A DNA stretch of 41,412 bases. Source: an uncultured Oscillospiraceae bacterium (GTDB lineage Bacteria; Bacillota; Clostridia; Oscillospirales; Oscillospiraceae). The translations under genes were made by a program, and so were the position numbers. Under the pieces are notes generated by a model. That model was not told the origin of the DNA. It worked only from the letters and a program-made list of their open reading frames with translations, and did not search any database. Location: positions 1 to 41,412 of the forward strand of contig CALXDC010000023.1 in the NCBI GenBank assembly GCA_944386975.1. Reading direction: 5' to 3'. The number at the start of each line of letters is the position of its first letter. Position 1 is the stretch's first letter. Shown here one piece after another: positions 27,729 through 41,412 of the stretch.

Positions 27729-27803
27729 CCTCCGCCGTCCACACCAGGCAAAGTGGTTTCCCCCCGGCTTTGTCCGCCGGGTGCGCTGCCAGCGGGAGAT
27801 ATG

Positions 27804-27843
27804 GAAAAAACACCCCGGCAGTCCCTTTGTGGGACCGCCGGGG
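27804..27843 (-). terminator. Terminator of the 27857-28426 gene
   Basis: CCCCGGC-GTCCC stem with one bulge pair around TTTG. On the minus strand it is followed by TGTTTTTT (A-run at 27805-27810 on the plus strand). It lies 14 bp beyond the stop codon. Confidence 0.85.
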
Positions 27844-27856
27844 CGGGAAGGGCTGT

Positions 27857-28426
27857 TCAGGTATCCTCGTCCTCCGGGCAGTAGGTGGGCCGTACCCAGG
27901 AGAGGGCGTTGTACTCCTCACAGGTGACCTGCAGAGCCGGGTCCTTCTGCAGGGCCTGCAGGCTGGAGGTCTTTACCTCAACCCCGACGTAGATCCTGGT
28001 TGATCCCCAGCCCTCCCGATAATCTCCCAGGAGATGCCCGGCGGTGACGTCCTCGTCAGCGGAGAAGCCGCCGCTATGGAAGCGGATCTCCACGGTTTCG
28101 CCGCTGGTGAGCAGGACGGTGATGCAGTAGTAACCCTCTCCACCCAGACCATCCTGGACCCTCACAGGGCCGGTGAGGCGCAGGGTCTCCATCATCGGAC
28201 GGAAGGGGTTCTCCTCACCGGGAATGTCGGAGAACACCAGGTATCTGACGCCTGGCGGTGAGGCCTCACAGGCCACCGCCTCCACCTCGGACCAGCGGAA
28301 GGATGTGCGCTCCTCTGCCTCGTCCCGCATGCGCCAGCCAGGCAGATAGAAGGTCAGCCCCATGTAGAGCAAAAAGAGGAAAATCAGAGCGATTACGGTG
28401 ATCCAGAGAATTTTGTTCGTTTTCAT
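27857..28426 (-). CDS. Hypothetical protein with N-terminal membrane anchor
   Basis: A 189-aa protein not recognised. Residues 1-26 form a short basic start (MKTNK) and one strong hydrophobic helix; the rest is an extracytoplasmic domain rich in strands, with two Cys in the C-terminal third. There is no lipobox, so it is probably an uncleaved anchor. Start ATG 28426 is chosen for AAAGGGGGTCG upstream; the frame extends 33 bp further but without a binding site. It is monocistronic, with a clear terminator. Composition matches the core genes, so it probably belongs to the chromosome rather than to the element on its right. Confidence 0.65.
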   Translation of the reverse strand: MKTNKILWITVIALIFLFLLYMGLTFYLPGWRMRDEAEERTSFRWSEVEAVACEASPPGVRYLVFSDIPGEENPFRPMMETLRLTGPVRVQDGLGGEGYYCITVLLTSGETVEIRFHSGGFSADEDVTAGHLLGDYREGWGSTRIYVGVEVKTSSLQALQKDPALQVTCEEYNALSWVRPTYCPEDEDT

Positions 28427-28764
28427 GCTGTCGACCCCCTTTGTAAAATAGAATATCACCCATCTTCCTGGTTAAATGATACCATACAAATGATAATTTG
28501 AAAAGAATAATTGGGAAATTTGCTCAATATAAATCCATCCCCGGGAACGGCAGGACCGCTCCCGGGGATGGAACGTGTTTTCCCTTGCACCGGGTATCGT
28601 CCGGCGGCTGCGGCCCAGGAGCAGACGCATCCGTCAGGGCCGGGGACACCCGGACCCGTATCATCGTCCTGCCCGCCGAGTAGACGGTCAAACACCCCTC
28701 CGCTTCAAACAGGCTGAAAAAATCGATATTTTCAATGGTTGAGGCAGCAGCAGGAGAACTGGCA

Positions 28765-28960
28765 AACCGGCCTTCTGGCCGGCGGCGCATTTGCGCCGTA
28801 CGAGCGTTTTACCGTAGGCAAAATCTCGGCGGACTGCCGCCGCAGCGGCGTTTCGGAGCGCAACCGCCCGCAGGGCGGCTCTTAGCGCGGAGATGGCGAA
28901 TTCACTTCGCCCGAGCATTTCCATCACCGGAGGGTGGAGCCGCCTTGCGGGCGGCGGAAC
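28765..28960. repeat. Mosaic of short GC-rich hairpins, interspersed-repeat candidate
   Basis: Consecutive small palindromes: CGGCGCA/TGCGCCG, GCCGC/GCGGC, CCGCCC/GGGCGG, GGCGAA/TTCGCC and GCCGCC/GGGCGGC, each with a 2-5 nt loop. They are separated by non-repetitive spacers of 10-40 nt and end at the terminator at 28963. The layout is that of REP/BIME-like intergenic repeats. Whether it recurs in the genome cannot be seen from one window. Confidence 0.55.
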
Positions 28961-28962
28961 CC

Positions 28963-29005
28963 AAAAAAGAAAGACATCTGCTTTCAGCAGATGTCTTTCT
29001 TTTTT
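28963..29005. terminator. Perfect 20-bp bidirectional terminator
   Basis: Arms 28963-28982 and 28986-29005, loop TTC. Six A at the left and six T at the right make it work on both strands. It stands alone, far from any stop codon. Confidence 0.85.
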
Positions 29006-29181
29006 GGAATGTGTTGATAAAAAAGATACACCCTCCAAAGCCTTGCGGCGCAATGGATTGCGAAGTTGTCACATCAACGGTTCCGCTTTTTTGTCAAAAT
29101 GAGGGTAGGCAATTCGAACCCCCGTCCCTGTCAGTGAGCGATTTCAGTTGAGATACTTCTGTTCCAAGAAATCTGAGTACA

Positions 29182-29730
29182 TTATCTTGCCGTGTCTCCG
29201 CGTTTCTTTTTCTTCTCAGCTTTGTCTACCTGCTGCATATCCGGGAAAAAATAACTGGCCATCTTGCGCATACCATCAAAATCCGTATCGTCGGGGCAAA
29301 TCACCGAAATCAGCATTGCGTCGGAGATCCTTTTCCCACCGACATTGCGGTACAATTCGATTGTGCTGCCCCAGTAGCCATCGCTGCCAGTATGGATCTC
29401 GTCCGAACGGTCATCAATGGAGAGGAGATAGCTGGCCGTGTCTACACCTATCGCTTTCTCCTTTGCCTTCTGGGAATTGTACATCATCCCATCCAGATAT
29501 GTTTCCATGGCTTTGGCCGGAGCCAGGAACAGTTCCATGTTCCGCTCCATAAAGCCTTCCACTTCTTTGCTTTCCCGTTCCTGCAGCACCAGACGGGCTT
29601 CAAAATGCTCGGGTGGCTGATAGTCAACCACGAGGCTCTGCAGCTTTCTCCCTTTGAACTGTTCAAAATAGAGCGGGTCCCCAAAGACAATATGTTTGGG
29701 GCATGGAATCTTGTAAGTCTCTTTTCTCAT
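29182..29730 (-). CDS. Hypothetical protein, mobile-element cargo
   Basis: A 182-aa soluble protein, not recognised. Seen: a conserved-looking opening KETYKIPCPKHIVFGDPLYFE, an acidic middle, a GSDGYWGSTIELYRN segment, and a Lys-rich C-terminus (DKAEKKKKRGD). No signal peptide or membrane helix. Start ATG 29730 has GAGAGG 9 bp upstream; an in-frame TTG lies 6 bp earlier. Its base composition is lower in GC than genes to the left. It is the leftmost gene of the element and lies beyond the terminator of the metallophosphoesterase, so it should have its own promoter. Confidence 0.7.
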   Translation of the reverse strand: MRKETYKIPCPKHIVFGDPLYFEQFKGRKLQSLVVDYQPPEHFEARLVLQERESKEVEGFMERNMELFLAPAKAMETYLDGMMYNSQKAKEKAIGVDTASYLLSIDDRSDEIHTGSDGYWGSTIELYRNVGGKRISDAMLISVICPDDTDFDGMRKMASYFFPDMQQVDKAEKKKKRGDTAR

Positions 29731-29762
29731 TGTCAAATACCTCTCTTATCATAATTTAAGAT

Positions 29763-29806
29763 AAAACAGGAGGCCGGCGCTTCAGCTGCCCCGGCCTCCT
29801 GTTTTG
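29763..29806. terminator. Terminator between the metallophosphoesterase and the 29182 gene
   Basis: AAAACAGGAGGCCGG, loop of about 14 nt, CCGGCCTCCTGTTTT. A perfect 15-bp stem usable on both strands; on the minus strand it ends the metallophosphoesterase gene. Confidence 0.9.
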
Positions 29807-29832
29807 TCTTATATCTGTCAAGTTTGCCTGCC

Positions 29833-30582
29833 TCATTTCAGCCGTAGAATCTGTTGATATAACAGGACGTGTTTCTGACGAAGCACCAGATTGCTATGGT
29901 AGTGCCCGAAGAAGTGATATTTAAACTGGCACCGCTGGCAGACTTCTTCCAGGAAATCTGTCAGGGCATCCGGTGTAGAACGCTCTCGGAGCAGCTCATT
30001 CTGAATGCTGGTGGGGGCGCAGTGGGTGATGATGTAGTCCACCTTCCAACCACCCCGGTCCAAATTGCTTCTGGCCTCCTCGTACTCCTCCTTGTCGGGG
30101 AGCTCCTCCTTCCACCAGGAGCGGTGGTTCACCCGGAACAGCGCCCCTTGGGTGTTCAGTCTCTGGAATTTCTTTAGGAACAGCGGATCGTCCGGTTCCA
30201 GGATACCGTCCTGGATATCGTGGCTGCTGGCTCCGCCCATGGTGAAGATGCGCTTCCCACCCAGCTCAAACACCTGGCCCCGTTCCAGCATGAGCACCGA
30301 TGGGCGGATGGGCCGCACCTTTCCGCCATGCCATTTCTCCAACGGATAAGTACGCAGGGCATCGTAGTTCTCATGGTTGCCGGGGACGAAGGCCGTGGTA
30401 AAGGGCCGCTGTTCCAGGAAGTCCAAACCATCGTTATCCCGCTTGTCTCCGTACCACACTCCTCCAAAGTCTCCGCACACCAGGACAATGTCCTTCTTGG
30501 TCATCGTCTCCTGCTCATAGAAGGATTCCGGGAGAAACCGTCTGAAATCTCCGTGCGTGTCGCCTGTCAAATATATCGCCAT
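29833..30582 (-). CDS. Metallophosphoesterase (calcineurin-like)
   Basis: A 249-aa cytosolic dimetal phosphoesterase. All family blocks are visible: GDTHGD (residues 7-12), VCGDFGG, PGNHEN, ITHCAPT and a final GHYHSN. These bind two metals (Mn/Fe/Zn). The family covers protein phosphatases, nucleotide phosphodiesterases and nucleases; the substrate cannot be told. The start follows AAGGAGC. It lies 27 bp downstream of the last recombinase gene on the same strand and could be read from that operon. Such genes are frequent cargo in clostridial integrative elements. Confidence 0.87.
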   Translation of the reverse strand: MAIYLTGDTHGDFRRFLPESFYEQETMTKKDIVLVCGDFGGVWYGDKRDNDGLDFLEQRPFTTAFVPGNHENYDALRTYPLEKWHGGKVRPIRPSVLMLERGQVFELGGKRIFTMGGASSHDIQDGILEPDDPLFLKKFQRLNTQGALFRVNHRSWWKEELPDKEEYEEARSNLDRGGWKVDYIITHCAPTSIQNELLRERSTPDALTDFLEEVCQRCQFKYHFFGHYHSNLVLRQKHVLLYQQILRLK

Positions 30583-30609
30583 AATAGTAAGCTCCTTTTC
30601 CTGCTTTGT

Positions 30610-32247
30610 TCAACGCAGCTTTTTATCGATCTCCAGCCCTGGATACCTGAACTTGATGCGGATGGTCTCGGCATCCAGCACCGTGATCTTCTCAATCGCC
30701 ATGCGGACCTGCTCATCCTGATACTCGGTGTTAACCTCCAGCCGGGCCATCCACGCTCTCAGCTCCGCCATGCGGGACGCCTGGTTGGCGCTGCGGACGG
30801 CATCCTGCTCCAGGGCGCTGATTTGCTCCTGAATGGTCTGCTTCTCGTCTACAAGGGCCTTGAGCTGGGAAGTCAGAGCAGTGTCATCCATGTGTTCCAG
30901 TACCTGATCCAACAACAGGGCTTGCTGAGCGTTGACGTCCTTCAGCCTCTGCCGCAGGGTGATGAGGCTGGTCCCATCAGACTCCCCGCCGCTCCAGGCC
31001 ATGGCAGCGAACTCCAGCATGTCGGACTTGACTTCCGTTCCGGCCTGGGCAAATTCGTTGATGGCCTCCAAAATGGCCTGATGGAGCTTCTCCTCAGCCA
31101 GCGTGGGGGAACTGTGGCAGTATTTCGTCCCAAACTCCAGCCGGGAGACGCACCGCCACACGATACGCTTTTTCCCGTTCCGCGCCCAGGTCACCCGTTT
31201 GTAGGGGGAACCGCACTCGCCGCATACCAACAGTTCCGTCAGGGCGTACTTGGCGGAATATTTGCCCAGTTCCGTCTTACCTGACTTCTGTAATACCTTC
31301 CGCTTGCTGGACCTTCGGGTCATCTCCTCCTGTACTCGATAAAACATATCCTTGGGGATGATCGCAGGGTGATTATTCTCCACATAGCTCTGCAGCCGCT
31401 CCCCATTGTTCTTCTTCACCTGTTTGCTGATACAGTCAGTAATGTAGGTTTTGCCCAGCAGAGCGTCACCAATGTACCGCTCATTGGTAAGAATATTGTG
31501 GATCACCTGATAGGACCACCGCTGAATGGCTTGGGCAGTCGGAACATGGTCCGCCTCCAGCTCCTGCTGGATCTGAGACAGGCTGCACCCGTCCAGGTAC
31601 CTGCGGTAAATTCGCCGCACCGTCTCCGCTTCCTCCGGCACGATCTCCGGCCTGCTGTCCTCTCCCTTGCGGTAACCCAGCAGCTTTTTGTACTGGAAGG
31701 TGACCTTGCCCGCTTTTATGCTTTTCTCTTTTCCCCAACTCACGTTTTTGCTGAGGGATTCACTCTCTGCCTGGGCGAAGCCGCTGAACAGGGTAATGAG
31801 GAACTCGCTGGACTCGGTAAGGGTATTGATGTTCTCCTTCTCGAAGATGACGCCGATCCCGCGCCCCTTCAGCATCCGCACGGTGTCCAGACAATCAACG
31901 GTATTCCGGGCGAACCGGGAGAGGGATTTGGCCAGGATTAGGTCAATCCTGCCTCGCTTGCAGGCGGCGATCATCTTGTTGAACTCTGCCCGTTTCTTCA
32001 TGCTGGTGCCGGAGAGCCCCTTGTCCGCAAAGATTCCGGCCAGCTCCCAGTCAGGATTGTCCTGGATCTTCTGGGTGTAGTATTCCTTCTGGGCCTCATA
32101 GCTGGTGAGCTGCTCCTCGCTGTCGGTGCTGACCCGGCAGTAGGCGGCCACCCGCTGGCGGCCCTGCCTGGGTCCTCTGTGCCCTCCTGTTGGGGGGCTT
32201 TTTGTGGCGGGGATGACCCTCACCCGTCGTTCCAATCCCTGTTCCAT
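30610..32247 (-). CDS. Large serine recombinase (complete), site-specific integrase candidate
   Basis: A 545-aa recombinase with all three parts: resolvase catalytic domain with YCRVSTD (nucleophile Ser near residue 40) and KSLSRFARNT, a recombinase DNA-binding domain (about 200-310), and a zinc-ribbon domain (CGECGSPYKR with later Cys) followed by a long coiled-coil (about 400-500). This is the layout of integrases of Tn4451/TndX- and phiC31-like elements, which excise and integrate via a covalent 5'-phosphoserine. Start ATG 32247 follows AAAGGACAGG. It is the last of four recombinase genes in tandem, lying 24 bp after the catalytic-domain-less one. Confidence 0.92.
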   Translation of the reverse strand: MEQGLERRVRVIPATKSPPTGGHRGPRQGRQRVAAYCRVSTDSEEQLTSYEAQKEYYTQKIQDNPDWELAGIFADKGLSGTSMKKRAEFNKMIAACKRGRIDLILAKSLSRFARNTVDCLDTVRMLKGRGIGVIFEKENINTLTESSEFLITLFSGFAQAESESLSKNVSWGKEKSIKAGKVTFQYKKLLGYRKGEDSRPEIVPEEAETVRRIYRRYLDGCSLSQIQQELEADHVPTAQAIQRWSYQVIHNILTNERYIGDALLGKTYITDCISKQVKKNNGERLQSYVENNHPAIIPKDMFYRVQEEMTRRSSKRKVLQKSGKTELGKYSAKYALTELLVCGECGSPYKRVTWARNGKKRIVWRCVSRLEFGTKYCHSSPTLAEEKLHQAILEAINEFAQAGTEVKSDMLEFAAMAWSGGESDGTSLITLRQRLKDVNAQQALLLDQVLEHMDDTALTSQLKALVDEKQTIQEQISALEQDAVRSANQASRMAELRAWMARLEVNTEYQDEQVRMAIEKITVLDAETIRIKFRYPGLEIDKKLR

Positions 32248-32271
32248 TTCCTGTCCTTTCCCGGTGGTGGT

Positions 32272-33051
32272 CTATTGGAAGGTGACCGCCACCGTATTGT
32301 CTGCCGATATGGTGATAGAAGAGATCGTCTGTCGGATGCGGTTGAGATCCACGTCCAGTGGGCAGTCTGCATTCTCACATGAAATTGCCGCGGGGCAGCA
32401 GTCGTACCGGGCCGAGGCGCCTTGCAGAATCAGGGAGACGATCTCCTCCGGTGATTCCGGGCGCTCCAGAGCACGGTTGATGGCATTGGTCAGGCGAATG
32501 ACCTCCCCGGAGGGCTGGTACGGCTCCTGGCCGGGCGCTTTGTGCTCTGCCCACTGCCGGGCTACCTCATCCAGCAGCTCGGCATCCGCAATGGTGACCA
32601 CAGCAGCGCAGTGAGCGCATTTGAGATACAGCGTATCCACCCTGCGTCCCTTCCCGGCCAGCCGGTGCAACTCCCCGCCGCATTGGGCACAGCGCATACA
32701 GTCCTTCAGCCGAAGGGCTGGACGGTCCGGCCTGGGGTCGTATCCGGCTGTTTTCTCTTGGATCATCGTCTGGACGGTCTTGAACACCTCGCTGTCAACG
32801 ATGGCCGGATAATCGTCCCTGCCAATGTAGCGGGGATTTTCCAGCAGGCGCTTGACCTTGTGCTTGTTCCATTCGGGCCTTGCTTGGCTATATGGAATAT
32901 GTTCTTCGTTCAAGGTGTCTGAGATCTTCTGATAGGACAGGCCGGCAGTGTAGAGGGAGAACATCCTCACCACCACAGCAGCATCTTCCGGGACCACAGT
33001 CAGGTCTCCATTCTGGATCTGATAGCCATATAACAAGGTCCGGTTTCTCAT
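32272..33051 (-). CDS. Recombinase-domain protein lacking the catalytic domain
   Basis: A 259-aa protein that aligns by eye with the middle and C-terminal parts of large serine recombinases only: a recombinase domain (GYQIQNGDLTVVPEDAAVVVRMFSLYTAGLSYQKISDTLN, then NPRYIGRDDYPAIVDSEVF) and a zinc ribbon (CMRCAQCGG, LKCAHC). No resolvase catalytic domain precedes it: its ATG overlaps the stop of the upstream recombinase (ATGA), so this is a designed gene boundary and not a fresh truncation. It may act as a directionality or accessory DNA-binding subunit (inference). Confidence 0.82.
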   Translation of the reverse strand: MRNRTLLYGYQIQNGDLTVVPEDAAVVVRMFSLYTAGLSYQKISDTLNEEHIPYSQARPEWNKHKVKRLLENPRYIGRDDYPAIVDSEVFKTVQTMIQEKTAGYDPRPDRPALRLKDCMRCAQCGGELHRLAGKGRRVDTLYLKCAHCAAVVTIADAELLDEVARQWAEHKAPGQEPYQPSGEVIRLTNAINRALERPESPEEIVSLILQGASARYDCCPAAISCENADCPLDVDLNRIRQTISSITISADNTVAVTFQ

Positions 33052-34601
33052 CTGACTTCCTCCAGCAATTCAGTCAACTCCAGACCGCCCCACAGCCGGA
33101 AGCGGATACGGGTCCGGGACTCCACAATGATCCGATCCACCAGCATGCTGAACAGCTCCTCATCGAAGCCCTCCAGTCGTTCTGGGCCCTGCTGTACGGC
33201 CTCTGCCATCTGGCGCAGGGTCTCCACCGCTTCCTCGATGTCATCGCTCTTGAGCAGCCTGCGGCGTTCCGCCCGAAGCTGCGTCAATTTGGCGTTGATG
33301 GCGCTCTGCTTGGCCGCACCGGCTTCCGCGTCCAGCAGTCCGGCGCTCTGGAGCTTGCTGATGTTATGGCTCTGCTCGGCGGCCTGGGCGATGGCCTGAT
33401 TGACCGCCAGCATGGCGGGGTTCTCCCGCAGAAGGGCGGTCCGCAGGTCGTCCAACTGCTCCAGCATGGGCCGCAGGACAATCCCTTCATTTTGCTTCAG
33501 CCTGTTGTACATCCGCACAAAGGCCGCATAGATCTCATGTTCTGGAATTCTACCCATTGGGCAGTTTGACGCACCTTTGTCGTGTTTCCTGCAGGTCCAT
33601 ACTACACGGCCACTCCGTCCCTCCCGGCGGGCGAAGGGGGTGCCGCACACTCCACATATAATTTTCCGTGACAGCAGATAGGGCTGGCATGACAGTCCCC
33701 TATGGCTGGATTTGCGCCGGAGCAGTTCCTGTGTTTTTTCAAATACCTCTCTTGTAATAATGGCGGGGTGCGTGTCCTCAGTGTAGTATTGGTCCCGTTC
33801 TCCGTGGTTTCGCTGCCTTACAAAAGGGAAGCCGGAGGTGAAGGTTTTCTGAGTGAGGGTATCGCCCATGTATTTCTCATTGGTTAATACATAGAGAACC
33901 GTACTGTGCTGCCAGTAGGGCGTTTTGTCTGTCGTGGGGAACTCCTTTTTTGTCATCTCCGCCGCGATCCACTCCAGGCTTCTCCCATTGAGATAGGACT
34001 GGAACATCCAGCGTACCTGTTCGGCTTCCTCCGAGACGATCTCCAGGTCCTTTCCGTCCACCAGACGGTATCCGAAAGGGGCGGAGCAGGTAATGAATTC
34101 TCCCCGCTCCATCCGCTTCTGGTAGCTCATCTGCTGGTTCTGGGAGATGGAGATGGACTCCTGCTGGGCCAAAGAACCGGAAACGCTCACCATCAATTCT
34201 GTGGTGAGCGTTCCAGTGTCAATGTTCTCTTTTTCGAAGTAGACGGATACCCCCAGCCTGGACAGCTCCCGCAGAGAAGCAAGGCAGTCACGGGTGTTGC
34301 GGGCGAAGCGGGAGATGGACTTGACCAGTACCTTGTCGATCCTGCCTTTGCGGCAGTCGGCCAGCATACGGTTGAAATCCTCCCGCTTGTCCATCCTGGT
34401 GCCAGTCAGCCCCTCATCGGCGTACACGTCCACCAGTTCCCAACCTGCATGTCCGTTGATCTGCTCCGTGTACTCCTTGATTTGAGCGGCGTAGGAATGA
34501 AGTTGGTCCGTAGAATCAGAGCTGACCCGGCAGTATGCCGCCACCCGCAGGATGTCCGGCTGTACCGCCTTGGGCGGGATCACCGTCACATTTGATGCCA
34601 T
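33048..34601 (-). CDS. Large serine recombinase (complete), second copy
   Basis: A 517-aa recombinase. Catalytic domain with YCRVSSD (Ser near residue 27), KSISRFARNT and the usual FEKENIDT, recombinase domain (about 185-300), zinc ribbon (CGVCGTPFARR, later Cys in CRKHDKGASNC), and a C-terminal coiled coil. ATG 34601 is preferred, with GAGAGGAG upstream, over a longer frame reading back into the neighbouring gene. It is only distantly similar to the 545-aa recombinase, so the two are not a recent duplication. The stop overlaps the next gene. Confidence 0.91.
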   Translation of the reverse strand: MASNVTVIPPKAVQPDILRVAAYCRVSSDSTDQLHSYAAQIKEYTEQINGHAGWELVDVYADEGLTGTRMDKREDFNRMLADCRKGRIDKVLVKSISRFARNTRDCLASLRELSRLGVSVYFEKENIDTGTLTTELMVSVSGSLAQQESISISQNQQMSYQKRMERGEFITCSAPFGYRLVDGKDLEIVSEEAEQVRWMFQSYLNGRSLEWIAAEMTKKEFPTTDKTPYWQHSTVLYVLTNEKYMGDTLTQKTFTSGFPFVRQRNHGERDQYYTEDTHPAIITREVFEKTQELLRRKSSHRGLSCQPYLLSRKIICGVCGTPFARREGRSGRVVWTCRKHDKGASNCPMGRIPEHEIYAAFVRMYNRLKQNEGIVLRPMLEQLDDLRTALLRENPAMLAVNQAIAQAAEQSHNISKLQSAGLLDAEAGAAKQSAINAKLTQLRAERRRLLKSDDIEEAVETLRQMAEAVQQGPERLEGFDEELFSMLVDRIIVESRTRIRFRLWGGLELTELLEEVR

Positions 34602-34629
34602 GCTGTCAGCTCCTCTCCATTTCGTGTTG

Positions 34630-35004
34630 TCACTCCGTAATTCCGTCCTCGCTGGTGTCGATGTTCTCCTGCTCGAAGCGGACGGATACCCCAAGGGCAG
34701 TCAGCTCCCGCAGGAGCTCCTGGCAGTCCTGGATGTTCCTCGACAATCGGGATACGGACCTGACCAGGATCTTGTCGATCTTCCCGGCCCGGCACTCTCT
34801 CAGCATACGGGTAAGCTCTTTCTGCTTTCGCATCCGGTTTCCGCTTGGGGCCACGTCCACATAGACTCCCGCCAGTTCCCAGTCCTCATGACCCTCCACT
34901 TGGGCTCTGAGGGCTCTGACCTGCGTGTCCAGAGCGGCTTGGTCGAAGTTACCCACCCGGCCATATACCGCCACACGTAGCGGGGGTCTTTCTGTTCCAT
35001 TCAT
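34630..35004 (-). CDS. Lone resolvase catalytic domain without its serine
   Basis: A 124-aa protein made of the N-terminal resolvase domain alone. It keeps the fold motifs (RVAVYGRVGNFDQ, WELAGVYVDVAPSGNRM, DKILVRSVSRLSRNIQD, VRFEQENIDT), but the nucleophile position reads Gly 18 (YGRVG instead of YCRVS), so it cannot cut DNA. The gene ends cleanly 28 bp before the next recombinase and has a ribosome binding site (AAAGGACGG), which argues for a retained role, perhaps as a subunit in the synaptic complex or a dominant-negative regulator (inference). It could also be a decaying gene. Confidence 0.8.
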   Translation of the reverse strand: MNGTERPPLRVAVYGRVGNFDQAALDTQVRALRAQVEGHEDWELAGVYVDVAPSGNRMRKQKELTRMLRECRAGKIDKILVRSVSRLSRNIQDCQELLRELTALGVSVRFEQENIDTSEDGITE

Positions 35005-35069: not shown

Positions 35070-35222
35070 TCACAATTCCCGAACAGTTACCGGGCGGTAC
35101 TTTTCTGCCGCCAGGCGATGGATGACGTCAGCCTCCTCCTCCGTCACAAAGCCGGCCTCCCGCATCCGGACCAGAATGCCAAGGGCAATCTGGTACTGCA
35201 GCTCCGTCCTGGCATTGATCAT
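35070..35222 (-). CDS. SHOCT-domain-like small protein
   Basis: A 50-aa protein. Most of it is one short helical-hairpin domain: TELQYQIALGILVRMREAGFVTEEEADVI, matching the SHOCT (short C-terminal domain) pattern of I/L-x-x-L-x-x-G-x-I/V-T-x-E-E. Such miniproteins are often found beside serine-recombinase genes in clostridial elements (from memory). Its ATG overlaps the stop of the DinG-like helicase (ATGA at 35219-35222), so it is translated with it. Role unknown. Confidence 0.8.
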   Translation of the reverse strand: MINARTELQYQIALGILVRMREAGFVTEEEADVIHRLAAEKYRPVTVREL

Positions 35223-37153
35223 GACGCTGCACCCTCCTGGAAGTAAGGTTCCGCCTTAACGGCTCGAATGAACTGCTCCACCTCTGTCAAACTGTCCGTG
35301 ACCGGCATCTCCGGCAGGGCGGCAATCACATCCATAAAATAGCGGTTGCCCTGGGCGGCCCGCTCATCCAGGATGGCCACCACGCAGGTGTCCGTCTCCG
35401 TGCGGATGGCACGGCCAAAGCCCTGCTTCAGCTTGATCTGCATCTCCGGTACTACCACCGCCCTCAGGAAGGCGCGGAGCGTGGGGTGATTCTCCCGCTC
35501 CTTTTCTTTTCGGGCATCAGGAAGAGGAAACGGCAGCCTGGGGATGATGAGCAGGGACACGCAGTCGCCTGGGAAGTCAAAACCCTCCCAGGCCGCGCCG
35601 GTGGCCAGCAGGACGCTGCCGGGGCTGGCCTTAAACTGCTCCATGGTACGCGCGCTGTTTCGCCCCAGCGTAAACAGAGGGTAGTTTAGTGTCTTTCTCC
35701 GCAGCCGCTCCTTCACAGCGGACATGGCAGCGTAAGAGGTGAACAATGCCAGGGTGTGACCGTGGGCTACGTCCAGCAGGGCAAGGATCTCATCCGTCAG
35801 TTGGTCGAAGTAATCCTTGTCCCCCTGGTTGGGAGGGATGTGAGGGAGATACAGCAGGCAGTTCCTGCTGTAATCGAACGGGGATGGCGCGACGAACTCA
35901 CGCACGCGGCCATCCGCCAGCAGACCGGTCTCTTCTTTGAAGTGCCGGAAGTCCTGACCAACGGCCAGTGTGCCGGAGGCCAGGATTGTTGGTTTGTTCT
36001 GCCGCCAGAGCGTCTGGCGGAACTGGGTGGTCAGGTCGGCGGAGGAGGCACACAGCATGGAGCCGCCCCGCTCATCCTCCGCTGTATAGAACACCAGATC
36101 AGGCTCCTGTCTGCTGAACAGCTCCGACTTGCTGGACACCTGCTCCAGCTGCTTGCGGGTGCTGGGCGTCAGGAAATCGCTGAGCTGCCGGCGGATCGCC
36201 GGGAGCGCCCGATTTGGCCCTGCCAGCAGGCCGGCGAAATGAGCGAAAGAGCGATCCGTGTCCCACGGCCTTGACAGCTCCTTCAGCAGAGGCTCTGCCG
36301 CGGACGCCAGGGTCTCGGAAGCCAGCAGATATCGCTCCCGGCGCAGGCTGTGGATCAGGTCCCGGAGTTCTTCCGCCATGAGTGTGACGCCGAACATCTG
36401 CCGGGCGGTCTCCGCCAGCTTGTGGGCCTCGTCAATGATAAGCCCACTGTATTCCGGAAAGATAGGCCGCTTTCCTGTGCTGCGGTGGATCGCGTCCGCC
36501 AGGAGCAGGTTGTGGTTGCAGATTTGAAATTGGTACCTGTCTGAGTCACACACTTCCACGAAGCAGAGATACCGGCAATCATCCTGACGGCAGTCGCACA
36601 CATGTGGAACGCATACGCGCTCCCGGTCATAGCTGCTGAGGTGAGGCGCCATGTCCAAGTCCAGGTGGTCCCGCAGAGACAACAGGGCTTCACACGCCTT
36701 TGGGTTCTTCCGCTCCAGATTGACAGCCTGCAGCCGCTGTTTCAAGCGCGCATCACATACATAGTGGGCCTTGCCCTTGCGGATGATGGCGCGCAGCGGG
36801 GCCCGCAGCATACCGTCTGCCAGCAGGAGCTTGGAGAGGAAGGGCAGGTAGTCGTTCAGCACCGCGTCCTGGAGGGCGATGCTGGAGGTAGAGACCAGAA
36901 GTGGACGAGGTGCCAGGCCCTGTGTGGACCGGTAACGGTGGAATGCCGTCCCGGCCACCAGGTAGGCATAAGTTTTGCCGATTCCGGTTCCCGCGTCACA
37001 AAGGGCGATGCCGCCCTCCAGCATGGCGTCCAGCATCTGGTGGCTCAAGGCCATCTGTGCCGGGCGCTCGGCCATCCCCTGGGCGGGGAGCAGGTCTCTG
37101 AAAACATGGTCGATCTCGTTATGGGCATTTTGCCTGTTATCCTTGTTATTCAT
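35219..37153 (-). CDS. DinG/XPD-like superfamily 2 helicase with Fe-S-type cysteines
   Basis: A 644-aa ATP-dependent DNA helicase. Seen: Walker A DAGTGIGKT (residues 53-61), a cysteine-rich insert (Cys at about 133, 181, 186, 188, 193, 197) where DinG/XPD holds a 4Fe-4S cluster, DEAH at 241-244, and C-terminal helicase motifs (GSVLLATGAAWEGFDFPGD, QGFGRAIRTETD). Six cysteines exceed the four needed. DinG enzymes unwind 5'-3' and resolve R-loops or collapsed forks; mobile-element versions may aid replication or transfer. ATG 37153 is favoured since AAGGGGA sits 9 bp before it; ATG 37174 is possible. It heads the SHOCT-recombinase gene string. Confidence 0.88.
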   Translation of the reverse strand: MNNKDNRQNAHNEIDHVFRDLLPAQGMAERPAQMALSHQMLDAMLEGGIALCDAGTGIGKTYAYLVAGTAFHRYRSTQGLAPRPLLVSTSSIALQDAVLNDYLPFLSKLLLADGMLRAPLRAIIRKGKAHYVCDARLKQRLQAVNLERKNPKACEALLSLRDHLDLDMAPHLSSYDRERVCVPHVCDCRQDDCRYLCFVEVCDSDRYQFQICNHNLLLADAIHRSTGKRPIFPEYSGLIIDEAHKLAETARQMFGVTLMAEELRDLIHSLRRERYLLASETLASAAEPLLKELSRPWDTDRSFAHFAGLLAGPNRALPAIRRQLSDFLTPSTRKQLEQVSSKSELFSRQEPDLVFYTAEDERGGSMLCASSADLTTQFRQTLWRQNKPTILASGTLAVGQDFRHFKEETGLLADGRVREFVAPSPFDYSRNCLLYLPHIPPNQGDKDYFDQLTDEILALLDVAHGHTLALFTSYAAMSAVKERLRRKTLNYPLFTLGRNSARTMEQFKASPGSVLLATGAAWEGFDFPGDCVSLLIIPRLPFPLPDARKEKERENHPTLRAFLRAVVVPEMQIKLKQGFGRAIRTETDTCVVAILDERAAQGNRYFMDVIAALPEMPVTDSLTEVEQFIRAVKAEPYFQEGAAS

Positions 37154-37533
37154 CCTAAAATGTCCCCTTATCATGTAAGTTTTCTTTCATTCTCATCGTA
37201 TTTGCAGCTCGCACCCCGATGAGTTGGGAACAGCACGGACAAGGTTTGGCAGACCTTCACAGGCATACTCCCAGGGTCTCTACTGCTTTCAACCCTGGGA
37301 ATACATGGCGGCCTTGCCGGGGCCGCCCCGCATTGGCGGGATCGCTCACCGGAGGGGATGTCCCCTCCGGGTCCTGGCGCGCACGATGCGTGTGTCTGTG
37401 CTGTGATCCGTACTGCTGGTATTCACTTATCAAAGAGCACACCGCCATATTTCTGGCTGGTACCCTTAGTTTAGTGAATCCGGCAGCCATTTTTTAGAGA
37501 GCAATGGACACATCTCCGTGACCATTGGACACA
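37154..37533. other. Hairpin-rich non-coding region
   Basis: No gene found. Contains tandem stem-loops: 9-bp arms 37269-37277/37292-37300, 7-bp 37307-37313/37321-37327, a short CCGC/GCGG, and a perfect 10-bp with 2-nt loop at 37349-37370. To the right are two direct copies of TGGACACAT (37505-37513 and 37526-37534), 21 bp apart. Could be an origin of transfer or single-strand origin, or the structured leader of the helicase message. Confidence 0.45.
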
Positions 37534-37884
37534 TTAGAGCTGCGACTCCAGGATGGACAACTTTTGGATCAGCTCCCGGATCTCCCGCTTGAGCGGCCCG
37601 CTCTCCGGGGTCTTCCCCAGGATCAGGTGATCCAGGGAGGTACCGAACACCGATGCCAGCGCAATAAACATATCGACAGAGCACCCCTTTTTCCCGGCCT
37701 CGATCCGGCTCAGAAAACTGCGGTCAATGCCCAGTAAGTCTGCCAGCGCCTCCTGTGTATAACCGGAAGCCTTGCGGAGCTGTTGTATTCGTTTCCCACA
37801 GGTCACCGTGTCATAGTACAGCTTTGACTCCTGCACACTTTTTTCAGTAGCTGCTTTTGAGGTGGTGGTATGTAGTTTTTTCAT
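37534..37884 (-). CDS. XRE-family HTH transcriptional regulator
   Basis: A 116-aa DNA-binding protein. Seen: a polar N-terminus of about 28 residues, a Cro/CI-type HTH at about 30-88 (GKRIQQLRKASGYTQEALADLLGIDRSFLSRIEAGKKG), and a short C-terminal helix (REIRELIQKLSILESQL) that may dimerise. Start ATG 37884 has GGAGATC upstream, but that site lies inside a long inverted repeat (37889-37930). It is a monocistronic unit between the terminator at 38012 and the hairpin-rich region. Likely controls the helicase/recombinase genes or itself (inference). Confidence 0.85.
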   Translation of the reverse strand: MKKLHTTTSKAATEKSVQESKLYYDTVTCGKRIQQLRKASGYTQEALADLLGIDRSFLSRIEAGKKGCSVDMFIALASVFGTSLDHLILGKTPESGPLKREIRELIQKLSILESQL

Positions 37885-37888
37885 GTTT

Positions 37889-37930
37889 TGATCTCCAATC
37901 TCAGTTTTTTAGAGCTGAAATTGGAGATCA
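37889..37930 (-). promoter_or_regulatory. Inverted repeat covering the ribosome binding site of the XRE gene
   Basis: Perfect 11-bp arms TGATCTCCAAT (37889-37899) and ATTGGAGATCA (37920-37930), extended inward by TCAG/CTGA after one mismatch. In the message the 3' arm contains GGAGATCA, the ribosome binding site of the gene starting at 37884. As RNA it would hide the site; as DNA it could be the XRE operator. Confidence 0.6.
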
Positions 37931-38011
37931 CGGATATTTTGCTGTATAGGTCTGCCAGTGCCGTCTCTGCATTGTCGCCCTTTCCGCTTTTCAGCGGGCG
38001 GAAAGGACAAC

Positions 38012-38058
38012 AAAAAAGGGAGCCTTACGCATAGCTGAAAAGCTACTTGTAAGGCTCC
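38012..38058 (-). terminator. Terminator of the XRE-ImmA-zinc ribbon operon
   Basis: GGAGCCTTAC with GTAAGGCTCC, and inside it TAGCT, loop GAAA, AGCTA. On the minus strand six T follow (A-run 38012-38017). It lies about 110 bp after the zinc ribbon gene. The open frame crossing it (37909-38157) is rejected for this reason. Confidence 0.8.
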
Positions 38059-38170
38059 GAACGCATAGTATCCCGCACTGGCGGGTGGTTGGTGCGCTTG
38101 ACAAAGTGTAGTCAAGTGAGGGAGGGGCAGCAGGCGGTGATCCGGTCTGCTGTCCACTGCTGCTCAATAT

Positions 38171-38359
38171 TCAACTCTTTGGGAATGTGATGCCGATTTG
38201 CGCCCCACACTTGGGGCATTTGGCAAACCACTGGGCCTTGGCCGACTGCCTGGGCCCGTACAAATTCAGGCAGGATGGGTCTGTCCCGCTGGCCGCGTCA
38301 ATGATTCTGCCTTTATGGCAGACCGGGCAGCGCAGTGTCTGCGTCTCTTTTCCTTTCAT
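38171..38359 (-). CDS. Small zinc-ribbon protein
   Basis: A 62-aa protein with two CPxC knuckles: CPVCHKGRI at residues 11-19 and CPKCGAQIG at 48-56, which together should hold one Zn. It resembles small zinc-ribbon ORFs found in clostridial conjugative elements; role unknown. ATG 38359 is chosen as it follows GAGGTGCC; the longer frame upstream lacks a binding site and overlaps immA. It lies 46 bp after immA on the same strand, so it is probably the third gene of that operon. Confidence 0.75.
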   Translation of the reverse strand: MKGKETQTLRCPVCHKGRIIDAASGTDPSCLNLYGPRQSAKAQWFAKCPKCGAQIGITFPKS

Positions 38360-38405
38360 AGGCACCTCGGTGTTCTCTTTTTTGTGAACAAGCTGATAAA
38401 AATTT

Positions 38406-39008
38406 TTACAGTAGATTGTGATGCTCCAGTCGGATGCGCATGGCCTGTTTAGATACCCCAAACAGGCAGGCCATATCGGCCACCAGGGTCCGGCGGTCAC
38501 GCCCAGGCCGGAGCTGATAAAAGGCGCGTTTGACCTGTGCCATGGGCATGAGGATCGCAGAACCCAGCAGATTGGCTTGAAACTCCATGTCGGTCTCCTC
38601 CGCTGTGAGCATCAGCGCCGCGCTCTCCCCGGTACCCAAGTAGAGCTTTTTATGCAAACACCAGTGGGCCAACTCATGGGCACAGGTAAAGCGAAAGCGG
38701 CCCGTATTGGCTTCTTCTCCGCAAAGGGACGCGTCTATCAGGATCGTGCCTGCCCGCACCGGAAACAGAATATACTCATGCAGCTCCATATCGTAGACCG
38801 CCTCCAGGCCATCGTCAAAAATGGTCTTCCCCAAAATGCGGCCGTTTTTTCGGAGGTATTGGTACTCCAGCGAAAGGCCGTTGGCTTCGATCAGATCCTC
38901 GATGGGGATAGCGGCAGGCTTGCCATAGTAGAGTTTGGGATCATAGGCGGTCAGCACACGGCGGGCAATATTCTCAATTGCGTACTCACTGTAAAACAGT
39001 TTCGCCAT
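38406..39008 (-). CDS. ImmA/IrrE-family metallopeptidase
   Basis: A 200-aa protein with the zinc-protease motif HELAHW at residues 111-116 inside FTCAHELAHWCLH, and a downstream Glu in EFQANLLGSAILMP, typical of the COG2856 family. In ICEBs1 and related elements ImmA cuts the XRE repressor ImmR to induce excision on DNA damage. Here the gene lies 15 bp after an XRE repressor gene, the same arrangement. The last third (TLVADMACLFGVSKQAMRIRLEHHNLL) is the usual helical end with a HTH look. Start ATG 39008. Cleavage of the neighbour is inferred from context. Confidence 0.9.
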   Translation of the reverse strand: MAKLFYSEYAIENIARRVLTAYDPKLYYGKPAAIPIEDLIEANGLSLEYQYLRKNGRILGKTIFDDGLEAVYDMELHEYILFPVRAGTILIDASLCGEEANTGRFRFTCAHELAHWCLHKKLYLGTGESAALMLTAEETDMEFQANLLGSAILMPMAQVKRAFYQLRPGRDRRTLVADMACLFGVSKQAMRIRLEHHNLL

Positions 39009-39023
39009 AGCTGCTTCCTCCCG

Positions 39024-39395
39024 TCATGTAGGTTTCCTTTTCGTCAGCCTGTCTATAAATTCCTGCCACTCCGCGTCTGTGGCGTCCACCTCTTTGGCCG
39101 TGCGGAGCGCCGCTCGAACAATGTCCCGCTCCATGATGTACTCGGGGAGATCCGAGGATACACGCTGGGCTTTCGACTTCGCCGCCAGATCCAGCATCTC
39201 CTCATAGCTTGCCTTATCCAGCATCAATTCTTTCGCCAGTTTTTCTAAATACTCCTGTGTGGGAGCTGCCCGCCGGTCCGTTTCGATATTGCTCATATAA
39301 ACTGGAGATATTCCCAACGCTGCCGCCAAGCCCCGGAGCGTCATGCCCCTGGCTTGCCGGTGCTGCCGTACAAAGCTCCCAAAGGTCTGTTCCAT
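39024..39395 (-). CDS. XRE-family HTH repressor (ImmR-like)
   Basis: A 123-aa DNA-binding protein. HTH at about residues 6-62 (FVRQHRQARGMTLRGLAAALGISPVYMSNIETDRRAAP), then a helical tail. With the ImmA-type protease just downstream it forms an ImmR/ImmA-like pair that would keep the mobile element silent. ATG 39395 follows GGGGTGAC; the longer frame begins inside the promoter. The promoter (39442-39470) contains an AACAAATGTT palindrome, a candidate autoregulatory site. Confidence 0.86.
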   Translation of the reverse strand: MEQTFGSFVRQHRQARGMTLRGLAAALGISPVYMSNIETDRRAAPTQEYLEKLAKELMLDKASYEEMLDLAAKSKAQRVSSDLPEYIMERDIVRAALRTAKEVDATDAEWQEFIDRLTKRKPT

Positions 39396-39441
39396 GCTGT
39401 CACCCCATTCTTTGTTCTCATTCTTGGAAACTAACAACGCC

Positions 39442-39470
39442 AGTATATCAAACATTTGTTCTATTATCAA
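39442..39470 (-). promoter_or_regulatory. Promoter of the XRE-ImmA operon
   Basis: Minus strand TTGATA (39470-39465), 17-bp spacer, TATACT (39447-39442). The spacer holds AACAAATGTT, a palindrome that suits a Cro/CI-type repressor. Confidence 0.72.
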
Positions 39471-39475
39471 GGTGT

Positions 39476-39507
39476 AAAAAGGGAGGTGTCCTCATTTGGG
39501 AACACCT
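39476..39507 (-). terminator. Terminator after the WYL regulator gene
   Basis: AGGTGT with ACACCT plus one further pair around a mismatch; on the minus strand CCC and five T follow. It lies 10 bp after the WYL gene's stop. Confidence 0.65.
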
Positions 39508-39516
39508 ACCGAATTT

Positions 39517-40476
39517 TTATTGCAGCCATGCCGCCATTTCCCGCATTTCCTGCAGGACATTGTCTGGTCCGGTGATCTGAATCCTTCCGCCAAAGGTAAA
39601 TACCCAGGCGAAAAAGGGCGGACTGGGCGCTACCTCCACCACGGCGCGGAAGTGTCCGCCGTCTGCTGTCTCGGTATGTACGGCCTCTCCAAATCGGTCC
39701 ACCACACTGCGCATCATGCTGTTCTCGCAGAGAAGTTCCACTGTCTGAAGGTCGTCTGGATACATGCCAAACACCTTCTGGACATAGGCCGAGGGGTCAA
39801 AGCTGCCTTGCGGCACGGCAGGCTCATCCGTCTGCAAGACGCTCACCATACGGTCTACCCGAAACTGGCCCAGTTTTCCATGCTTCTCAGACCAGCCCAC
39901 GGCATAATAGAAATCCCGGTTCCAGATCAGGGCATAGGGACTGAACCGGTATCGGAATCCATTATGCTTGAGGACCTTTTCTTTGTTCGGCGTATACTCA
40001 TAATATTGAAAGGTGATCTTCCGGCGTTCCTGAATAGCAGTCTGAATCACGTCCACGCTGTAATAGACGGTCTCATTCTGGGGCTTCGCCATCCCGTCCA
40101 TATAAATGGGCTCGTTCAGCTGATCCGCTTGGGCACGGCTGGTAAGCTGGCCCAGCTTCCGAATCAGGGCGCCGCTCTTCTTTTTGGTAATAAAATGGGA
40201 GGACTCCACCGCATTTGCCAGCAGTTTCAGCTCTGGAAGCTCGAACAGGCGTGCTCCAACCGCATAGCGGTTCTGTGTGCTCTTGTCGCAGAGGATGTCA
40301 ACGCCCGCTTCGGTCAGTACGGCGATATCGTTGTAGACGCTTTTCCGTCCCGCTTCGATCCCTTTGCCCTTCCAATAGGCGAGAATGTCCTGCGCGGAGA
40401 CAGGATGGGATTCGTCTGTCTCCTTATACAGGTATTCCAGAAGATATAAAATGCGTTTCTGCGTCTCATTTTTCAT
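39517..40476 (-). CDS. WYL-domain transcriptional regulator
   Basis: A 319-aa regulator. Seen: N-terminal winged HTH (about residues 5-65; SAQDILAYWKGKGIEAGRKSVYNDIAVL), a WYL domain (about 140-225; ERRKITFQYYEYT, FRYRFSPYALIWNRDFYYAVGW) and a C-terminal WCX-like domain (about 235-319). WYL domains bind nucleic acid or nucleotide ligands, and WYL regulators such as BrxR and CapW silence phage-defence genes. Here it lies 23 bp after an ADP-ribosyltransferase-like gene on the same strand, so it is a candidate regulator of that toxin-like protein (inference). Many elements also carry WYL proteins without a defence role. Confidence 0.88.
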   Translation of the reverse strand: MKNETQKRILYLLEYLYKETDESHPVSAQDILAYWKGKGIEAGRKSVYNDIAVLTEAGVDILCDKSTQNRYAVGARLFELPELKLLANAVESSHFITKKKSGALIRKLGQLTSRAQADQLNEPIYMDGMAKPQNETVYYSVDVIQTAIQERRKITFQYYEYTPNKEKVLKHNGFRYRFSPYALIWNRDFYYAVGWSEKHGKLGQFRVDRMVSVLQTDEPAVPQGSFDPSAYVQKVFGMYPDDLQTVELLCENSMMRSVVDRFGEAVHTETADGGHFRAVVEVAPSPPFFAWVFTFGGRIQITGPDNVLQEMREMAAWLQ

Positions 40477-40499
40477 GTGATCGCTCCAAATTCATATAA

Positions 40500-41078
40500 T
40501 TAGGCGATGATACAATACGACAGTGGCGATAATTTTTTGAGTTTAATATTATGTGCAAATAGCACTTCATATTCACGTCTGTCAGGGTTTACTTCAGGAA
40601 CATATCGCCCATGTGAGCCTTCCGGGGCGAGGATCGTGATAAGGAATCGCCCGTTCTTAATGTCTCCCATTGCATAATCTTCCTTCAATAAGGTTGTACT
40701 CCAAAAAATAGGAACTGTATAAATCCTGTCAAATATTGTCCCGACAAAGATATGTAGAAGTTCTTTCAAACTGACAAATCTATAGGTTACGATGGAATTT
40801 GGTAGGCTATCGGAGAGAAGCATATCCTGTAGTCCTTTAACTGTTGTACGCTTTGTAACGCCCTGCATCAGTGAGGCATTCATATTTTTATAGAGAGCGC
40901 CTTTATAATCATTTAATGGGGAGTTACTATTGAAATATGAATATTTTTTTACGTATTCTTCTGAATAGCATGAAACAGCCCATGCATCAACCTCTTCTGG
41001 CGAATAAAACTCCTTGATGTTCGCCCAATCAACAGACGGTAGTTTTTTCTGCGCTTTATCAATTAAATGCTGATCCAA
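40500..41078 (-). CDS. ADP-ribosyltransferase-like protein (R-S-E class, VIP2/C3-type fold)
   Basis: A 192-aa protein with the key elements of R-S-E ADP-ribosyltransferases in order: a helical LNDYKGALYKNMNASLMQG (about 55-73), YRFVS with Arg 100, a STS-like FWSTT with Ser 127, and the ExE motif REYEVLF with Glu 169 and Glu 171. ExE enzymes transfer ADP-ribose from NAD+ usually to arginine. There is no signal peptide or second domain, so it should act inside the cell. The start is TTG 41078 with AGAGGTGA upstream. The gene is clearly AT-richer than its neighbours, a sign of separate transfer. The WYL gene follows by 23 bp. Not verified by structure or database. Confidence 0.75.
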   Translation of the reverse strand: MDQHLIDKAQKKLPSVDWANIKEFYSPEEVDAWAVSCYSEEYVKKYSYFNSNSPLNDYKGALYKNMNASLMQGVTKRTTVKGLQDMLLSDSLPNSIVTYRFVSLKELLHIFVGTIFDRIYTVPIFWSTTLLKEDYAMGDIKNGRFLITILAPEGSHGRYVPEVNPDRREYEVLFAHNIKLKKLSPLSYCIIA

Positions 41079-41286
41079 TGTATAGTCACCTCTATTCGTA
41101 TTCGAAAACCGGGCATATCATTGCATCTCAATACCAAATACGCCGCCCAGTCAAGGCACCGTTACTGGATGCTCCGAGCAAAAGTCTAGAGCACCCGCGA
41201 GGGAAGATGGAGCGTATTGGGACTTTGCCTTACCAGCCGCGCCCTTTGCCTGTGATTTGGATGGAGACTTTCAGCGTCTTGCCGCT

Positions 41287-41412
41287 TCAGGCCGCTTCCA
41301 CCCTTTGTAAGTCCGTAATCGGGTAACGCAGCACGTTATTTTTCAGGATTACTGCAGAGCCGTGCTCGTTCAGCAGCCAACCTGCCCTGGAAAAATTCTG
41401 ATTGGCCTCTGT
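41287..41412 (-). CDS. C-terminal fragment of an unidentified protein, runs off the right edge
   Basis: An open frame of 41 codons ends at TGA 41289-41287 and is open to the window edge. Its end reads GWLLNEHGSAVILKNNVLRYPITDLQRVEAA. The composition looks coding, and it lies on the same strand as the rest of the element, 208 bp before the ADP-ribosyltransferase start. The family is not recognised; nothing more can be said from 41 residues. The 208-bp gap holds a weak hairpin (about 41164-41194) and no clear promoter. Confidence 0.5.
   Translation of the reverse strand, partial: TEANQNFSRAGWLLNEHGSAVILKNNVLRYPITDLQRVEAA

Follow-up and report, generated by a model that had tools for sequence, protein, structure and literature searches.

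ADP-ribosyltransferases (ARTs) of the phage Alt/VIP2 clade modify proteins of the host, RNA polymerase among them, as portions of two papers relate (PMC9503650; PMC5512222). WYL-domain regulators are linked to defence: in sections of PMC9122588, CapW is a WYL repressor that binds the promoter of a CBASS operon, and CapW and BrxR both control defence systems. Parts of PMC9503650 describe WYL factors that occur with ADP-ribosylglycohydrolase systems and regulate them; such systems are predicted to act against ADP-ribosylation by viruses. An operon of an ART and a WYL gene is not described in these portions of PMC9503650, PMC5512222 and PMC9122588, and among the papers listed for WYL with ADP-ribosyltransferase or with ImmA and serine recombinases no title or abstract opening names such a pair.

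At one end of the window, the 41,412-nucleotide stretch of Oscillospiraceae DNA analysed here, an ART gene is followed by a WYL gene on the minus strand after a gap of 23 bp (40477–40499). The first-pass annotation had noted this arrangement correctly and had proposed that the two genes form a defence or addiction module. The features of the region are:

41287–41412, minus strand: C-terminal piece of a Phd/YefM-like antitoxin frame, similar to loci L131 and L133, cut by the contig end
40500–41078, minus strand: standalone ADP-ribosyltransferase, PF03496 (Alt/VIP2, R-S-E type), 192 aa, TTG start, Pfam 3.5e-10
40477–40519, minus strand: inferred left border zone of the element, projected by homology from the copies in genomes G291 and G206
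39517–40476, minus strand: WYL-WCX regulator, edge gene of the element (Pfam WYL PF13280 1.7e-12, WCX PF25583 1.3e-6)
39024–39395, minus strand: Xre-type HTH regulator, 123 aa, weakly CapH-like (Pfam HTH_31 3.9e-12; PADLOC capH 3.3e-8)
38406–39008, minus strand: ImmA/IrrE-like metallopeptidase (M78), CapP-like (Pfam 2.1e-13; PADLOC capP 1.5e-18)
38171–38500, minus strand: small Cys-rich (zinc-ribbon-like) ORF (tblastn to L042–L044; Pfam all below cut-off)
37534–37884, minus strand: second HTH regulator (Pfam HTH_3 1.8e-15)
35219–37174, minus strand: DinG/YoaA-type helicase (NCBIfam YoaA 5.3e-95, below cut-off; 60% identical in L042–L044)
33048–34694, minus strand: large serine recombinase (Pfam Resolvase 1.5e-31, Recombinase 6.1e-23)
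32272–33051, minus strand: recombinase-like protein lacking the resolvase catalytic domain (Pfam Recombinase 1.1e-16, no Resolvase match)
30610–32247, minus strand: large serine recombinase (Pfam Resolvase 2.9e-34)
29833–30582, minus strand: metallophosphoesterase, last gene of the shared block (Pfam Metallophos 1.8e-12)

The ART gene begins 334 bp from the contig end, so that its upstream context is short. A ribosome-site-like AGAGGTG lies 8 nt before the TTG codon, and the frame spans 205 aa from stop to stop. Residues 48–181 of the protein (P0001) match the ADP-ribosyltransferase exoenzyme family PF03496 at 40 bits; the curated cut-off is 23.4 bits, and the match is therefore not due to chance. 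R100, S127-T128-T129 and E169-Y-E171 lie at the positions first assigned to them, and the Pfam match agrees with that motif reading. The conservation of R100, S127 and E171, on which the reading depended, held up in nine, eight and nine of nine aligned sequences (the window sequence counted); E169 is kept in eight, and the exception, in genome G546, has Q and Y in place of S127 and E169. No hydrophobic signal-like stretch is visible by eye at the N-terminus, in line with the earlier view that the protein has no secretion signal. The gene is also AT-rich, as had been observed: its GC content is 38.5%, whereas the WYL gene has 53.6%, the upstream 334 bp have 51.8% and window positions 1–27700 have 62.4%. 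We read the protein as a mono-ADP-ribosyltransferase of the R-S-E (Alt/VIP2) type that is complete in itself and apparently stays in the cytosol.

As a single sequence, the ART matches solved ART structures weakly, with a best value of 0.0033 (Lmo0066). With a profile of four members and a threshold of 0.01, 31 different solved sequences are retrieved; Lmo0066 is again the best (5.7e-12), followed by binary-toxin and Vip2-type enzymes. These sequence profiles are the basis of the predicted fold. NCBIfam gave no match for either the ART or the WYL protein. We rejected three other identities for the ART: a secreted toxin, given the N-terminus inspected by eye; a fragment of a larger polymorphic toxin, given its own ribosome site and start and a stop-to-stop frame of only 205 aa; and a phage head-packaged enzyme, since a scan of 20 window proteins showed no head genes.

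Relatives of the ART are few and scattered. PF03496 is found in nine of 300 genomes of the window's family and in 20 genomes of its class, the window's own included in both counts. Searching plasmids with P0001 alone returned two Lactococcus plasmid records at 26.6% identity. The Lactococcus ART, used as query, returned six plasmid records, two of them its own; the others include pGL5 (76.5%), a Clostridioides plasmid (32%) and Thermoanaerobacterium in two records. The four-ART profile identified six genomes of the class besides the window's own, among which G369 and G546 were examined. P0001 had no match in phage records or in the genome-contig and viral-contig collections, the alignment of four ARTs had none in those two collections, and P0005 had none in phage records and viral contigs. 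The presence of relatives on Lactococcus and Clostridioides plasmids fits an ART that travels on mobile DNA.

The neighbours of these relatives differ from one context to the next. On the Lactococcus plasmids an ArsC/Spx-like gene precedes the ART and a recombinase gene lies within a few genes after it; on the Clostridioides plasmid a Fic gene precedes it. The Thermoanaerobacterium plasmid carries a DEAD/DEAH helicase before the ART, which is split across two annotated frames, and a Rad52-like gene after it. In G294 (L112, 8143–10115) the ART adjoins an ADP-ribosylglycohydrolase gene, and a phage capsid gene lies at a distance of a few kb. G369 has, within a few kb, a Mob_Pre gene and a protein of YhcG type that matches the PADLOC candidate PDC-S02 (1e-98). 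In G546 (L121, 7593–9981) a NOV_C-like gene, the ART with the changed S and first E, and a KAP ATPase form a tight run, a possible defence operon; the KAP protein matches the PADLOC candidate-defence family PDC-S20 at 7.9e-176. Mobile DNA recurs in most of the seven contexts, G546 apart. Given the two ART relatives beside candidate-defence proteins, and the CRISPR-associated and defence-like links of the WYL family, the ART alone may have a defence role. It would be a bolder and rather improbable step to regard the standalone Alt/VIP2-type ARTs that Firmicutes carry on plasmids and in integrated elements as an unrecognised class of intracellular conflict effector, with an element insertion in the window newly placing the ART and the WYL gene in one transcript.

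The WYL gene has a different association. As had been surmised, it lies in a mobile setting, here a serine-recombinase element that also encodes Xre and ImmA-like proteins, to which CapH and CapP appear to be distant relatives. Stretches related to the small Cys-rich ORF occur in three other elements (L042–L044). The protein at 32272–33051 sits between two full serine recombinases and has weak zinc-ribbon matches; an uninterrupted frame like it, of similar length, is found in L042, L043, L044, L051 and L080, and the protein is possibly an accessory DNA-binding subunit. A short ORF (34630–35004) encodes a resolvase N-terminal domain only (Pfam 1.5e-20) and overlaps the start of the next recombinase gene.

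Homologous copies suggest where this element ends. Between the copies in G291 and G206, a block of 10,512 bp is 96.2% identical; in both genomes it opens 43 bp ahead of the WYL start codon and closes 2 bp beyond the metallophosphoesterase stop, with different flanks on either side. The window copy is more distant, about 67–77% identical to these two copies where stretches align. Projected onto the window, the border zone takes in the ART stop codon and about the last six ART codons, which would put the element's left border at the ART 3' end. DNA upstream of the WYL gene was compared in 12 of the 17 WYL loci described below. In L041 a frame of Rhs-like repeats (identified by eye) stops 57 bp short of the WYL gene. 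L050 and L052 have 90% identity as far as 169 bp ahead of that gene, and 69% from 11 bp ahead of it onwards. Only two 7-mers are common to the two element ends in the window, which is about the chance expectation and gives no attachment-site repeat; an empty site was not found.

We next consider whether the ART and WYL families are linked elsewhere. The WYL family is common, matching 201 of 300 family genomes at 1e-30, and neighbourhoods were taken from the 17 closest of the 200 other genomes; among these, L047 stops just after the WYL gene and L054 starts 233 bp before it. A relative of this ART was found in none of the 17 loci by tblastn with the single sequence P0001, a search that distant ARTs would escape, and none of the 17 genomes is among the nine PF03496-positive genomes of the same 300. 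Conversely, the WYL family was found in none of 16 ART loci (four plasmid, 12 genome, the latter including G369, G546, G371 and G634, which are four of the other 19 PF03496-positive class genomes) with an HMM at E up to 1; the flanks covered reached about 10 kb at most and were far smaller at some loci where the contig or record ended. This HMM, built from 14 proteins, recovers the WYL gene in 17 of 17 WYL loci, 13 of which were sequence sources.

Within the WYL loci, Xre and ImmA-like genes lie downstream of the WYL gene in eight of 17 (L041–L044, L050–L053). L042, L043 and L044 also carry a DinG-type helicase and recombinases, and L051 has recombinases with no helicase match. The Xre and ImmA pair was not seen in the other nine (L045–L049, L054–L057), of which L047, L049 and L054 are cut by contig ends; in L049 and L055 there is only a weak match to ImmA. 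When 129 genomes were searched, ten matched, and in one of them (G724) DNA like the Xre/ImmA part lies about 33 kb from DNA like the WYL gene, on opposite strands. The WYL-Xre-ImmA order is therefore frequent among close relatives and not fixed, and not every WYL gene of the family is tied to the block. Two more distant WYL relatives have other company. In L056 (4510–9555) one directly follows proteins with SspB- and SspC-like PADLOC matches, so parts of the family do adjoin defence-like genes. L057 (3980–7444) encodes, about 1.9 kb upstream of the other relative, a helicase-like protein of 1154 aa that PADLOC matches strongly both to a possible alternative Cas3 (1.8e-217) and to DpdF.

Several observations separate the WYL gene from the ART: the G291/G206 block ends 43 bp before the WYL gene with unrelated flanks, linkage is absent in 17 WYL and 16 ART loci, the GC content steps from 38.5% to 53.6% between the two genes, and the edges in L041, L050 and L052 fall close to the WYL gene. 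Furthermore, the ART has the shortest tail of the nine aligned sequences, with 21 residues after E171 compared with 29–107 in its eight relatives, which argues for an insertion at its 3' end. Based on these observations, we consider it probable that a standalone Alt/VIP2-type ART travelling on mobile DNA had an unrelated, WYL-led serine-recombinase element inserted at or in its 3' end, and that the WYL protein is not its dedicated partner. The adjacency is most likely accidental, and a new two-gene module is not supported.

If the insertion clipped the ART, the gene may be a decaying remnant that no longer folds or works. This is compatible with the insertion reading and does not compete with it for likelihood; we regard it as a possible but somewhat doubtful outcome. 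The short tail lies at the projected element edge, and the 334 bp upstream look like shreds of other mobile genes. The Phd/YefM-like piece there, which would be the antitoxin if the ART were the toxin of a type II toxin-antitoxin pair, has 41 codons, ends 208 bp upstream of the ART and has no Pfam match. In L131 and L133 the corresponding antitoxin is followed by a Fic/Doc-like gene (Pfam checked for L133 alone), and the L133 antitoxin matches PF02604 at 2.6e-6, just under the cut-off. In addition, a 35-bp stretch upstream of the ART resembles, in three genomes, a gene that by eye looks TraG/VirD4-like. We infer that these 334 bp are mobile-gene debris. Window positions 41079–41412 have no match in plasmids, phages or ten other genomes of the genus, and short weak matches in six of 129 other genomes of the family draw. 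The stretch from the ART to the contig end showed no sigma-70-like promoter, and the region's three promoter-like sites do not exceed the number expected by chance. Against decay, the ART retains the full catalytic set, an uninterrupted frame and a recognisable ribosome site. A possible assembly chimera at the contig edge counts against the insertion reading itself.

A second alternative is that the ART is recent cargo of a composite element, in which the WYL protein, with Xre and ImmA, now controls it within one mobile unit, although the pair is not ancient. The shared strand, the 23-bp gap and the lack of a terminator-like site between the two genes fit such a unit, and other copies of the element indicate that extra genes can ride with it. 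A contig of genome G302 (C13, L080) is 99.5% identical to window positions 28899–34247 over 5.3 kb, whereas its flank nearby (27784–28531) is 92% identical, suggesting recent transfer of the element. This near-identity passes the shared block on the side away from the WYL gene, reaching 28899, about 930 bp past the phosphoesterase. The window's transferable unit may thus exceed the shared block, and the ART could be inside a composite unit; the G302 copy is cut by the contig end before the WYL gene. On the WYL side, L042 and L043 are 91% identical over about 1.2 kb upstream of the WYL gene, so genes beyond the edge can travel along. The end of the G302 near-identity coincides with an interspersed modular repeat at 28719–29007. 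The wider stretch 27729–29200 has at least 32 matches in the window's own genome, self included, and matches in all ten other genomes of the genus; among the matches listed, nearly all are to 28719–29007. DNA of window positions 37900–41412 gave short matches, at 67–71% identity, in two of six other genomes of the genus. Set against the composite unit are the end of the G291/G206 homology 43 bp before the WYL gene, the 17 WYL loci, none with a relative of this ART, and the unmatched 41079–41412 in the ten other genus genomes. We therefore find it unlikely.

The original proposal, a dedicated defence or addiction module in which the WYL protein represses or senses and the ART kills or blocks infection, is in our judgement highly improbable: the genes are adjacent, the WYL protein matches PADLOC CRISPR-associated WYL models (1.7e-30) and WYL regulators do control defence and ADP-ribosylglycohydrolase systems, but the pair does not recur in any of the 17 or 16 loci, the WYL gene marks the edge of a different block and no PADLOC model matches the ART. 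The suggested tie to defence stands in part, through the WYL protein, its more distant relatives and the two ART relatives beside candidate-defence proteins; in the PADLOC scan, which took in five proteins of the region, zero families matched the ART at E up to 1.

Returning to the insertion of a WYL-led element beside a mobile ART, we suggest how the parts would act. With NAD+ as its substrate, the ART would modify some bacterial protein, and the most likely setting is a conflict of mobile elements with one another or with their host. The WYL-led element would have entered at or in the ART 3' end, as its homologous copies imply, and the WYL protein, the Xre repressor and the ImmA-like peptidase would probably form its induction switch. 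DNA damage or single-stranded DNA would be sensed, the peptidase would remove the repressor and the excision genes would be expressed. We take the Xre/ImmA-like pair to be of the ImmR/ImmA and CapH/CapP type of switch. The short gap, the shared strand and the lack of a terminator-like site allow co-transcription of the two genes, and read-through from the ART into the WYL gene may occur as a by-product of the insertion.

This analysis removes from consideration a two-gene defence module that was plausible but is probably a mistake, and indicates that an element with a regulator as its edge gene can mimic an operon. It also draws attention to scattered standalone ARTs, with putative bacterial targets, borne by plasmids and elements in Firmicutes. 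The closest described counterparts are the ARTs of Lactococcus garvieae pLG1074-optrA and pGL5 and of the Clostridioides plasmid. Like the window ART, they are single-domain proteins of 190–240 aa on mobile DNA with the catalytic-Arg, STx and ExE motifs; they differ in being 24–29% identical to it, in having 17–18 more residues after the last catalytic Glu, and in having ArsC/Spx-like or Fic genes, and no WYL gene, as neighbours. ARTs of the phage Alt/VIP2 (R-S-E) clade share the R, S, E active site, and Alt, whose target is host RNA polymerase, is likewise borne by a mobile element, a phage; unlike phage Alt, the window ART has no phage head genes in the 20 window proteins scanned and no match in phage records. 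The window WYL protein has the WYL-then-WCX order of CapW and BrxR, but it lies at the edge of a serine-recombinase element, whereas CapW regulates a CBASS operon. Like elements of cassette (Ccr) type, the window element has large serine recombinases; their best NCBIfam matches are CcrB and CcrC, far below the curated cut-offs (127.6 bits at best, compared with 900 for CcrB). With ImmR/ImmA-regulated elements it has the Xre and ImmA-like pair in common. It differs from both the Ccr-type and the ImmR/ImmA elements in its three recombinase genes, one of them lacking a catalytic domain, and in carrying a DinG-type helicase and the WYL regulator.
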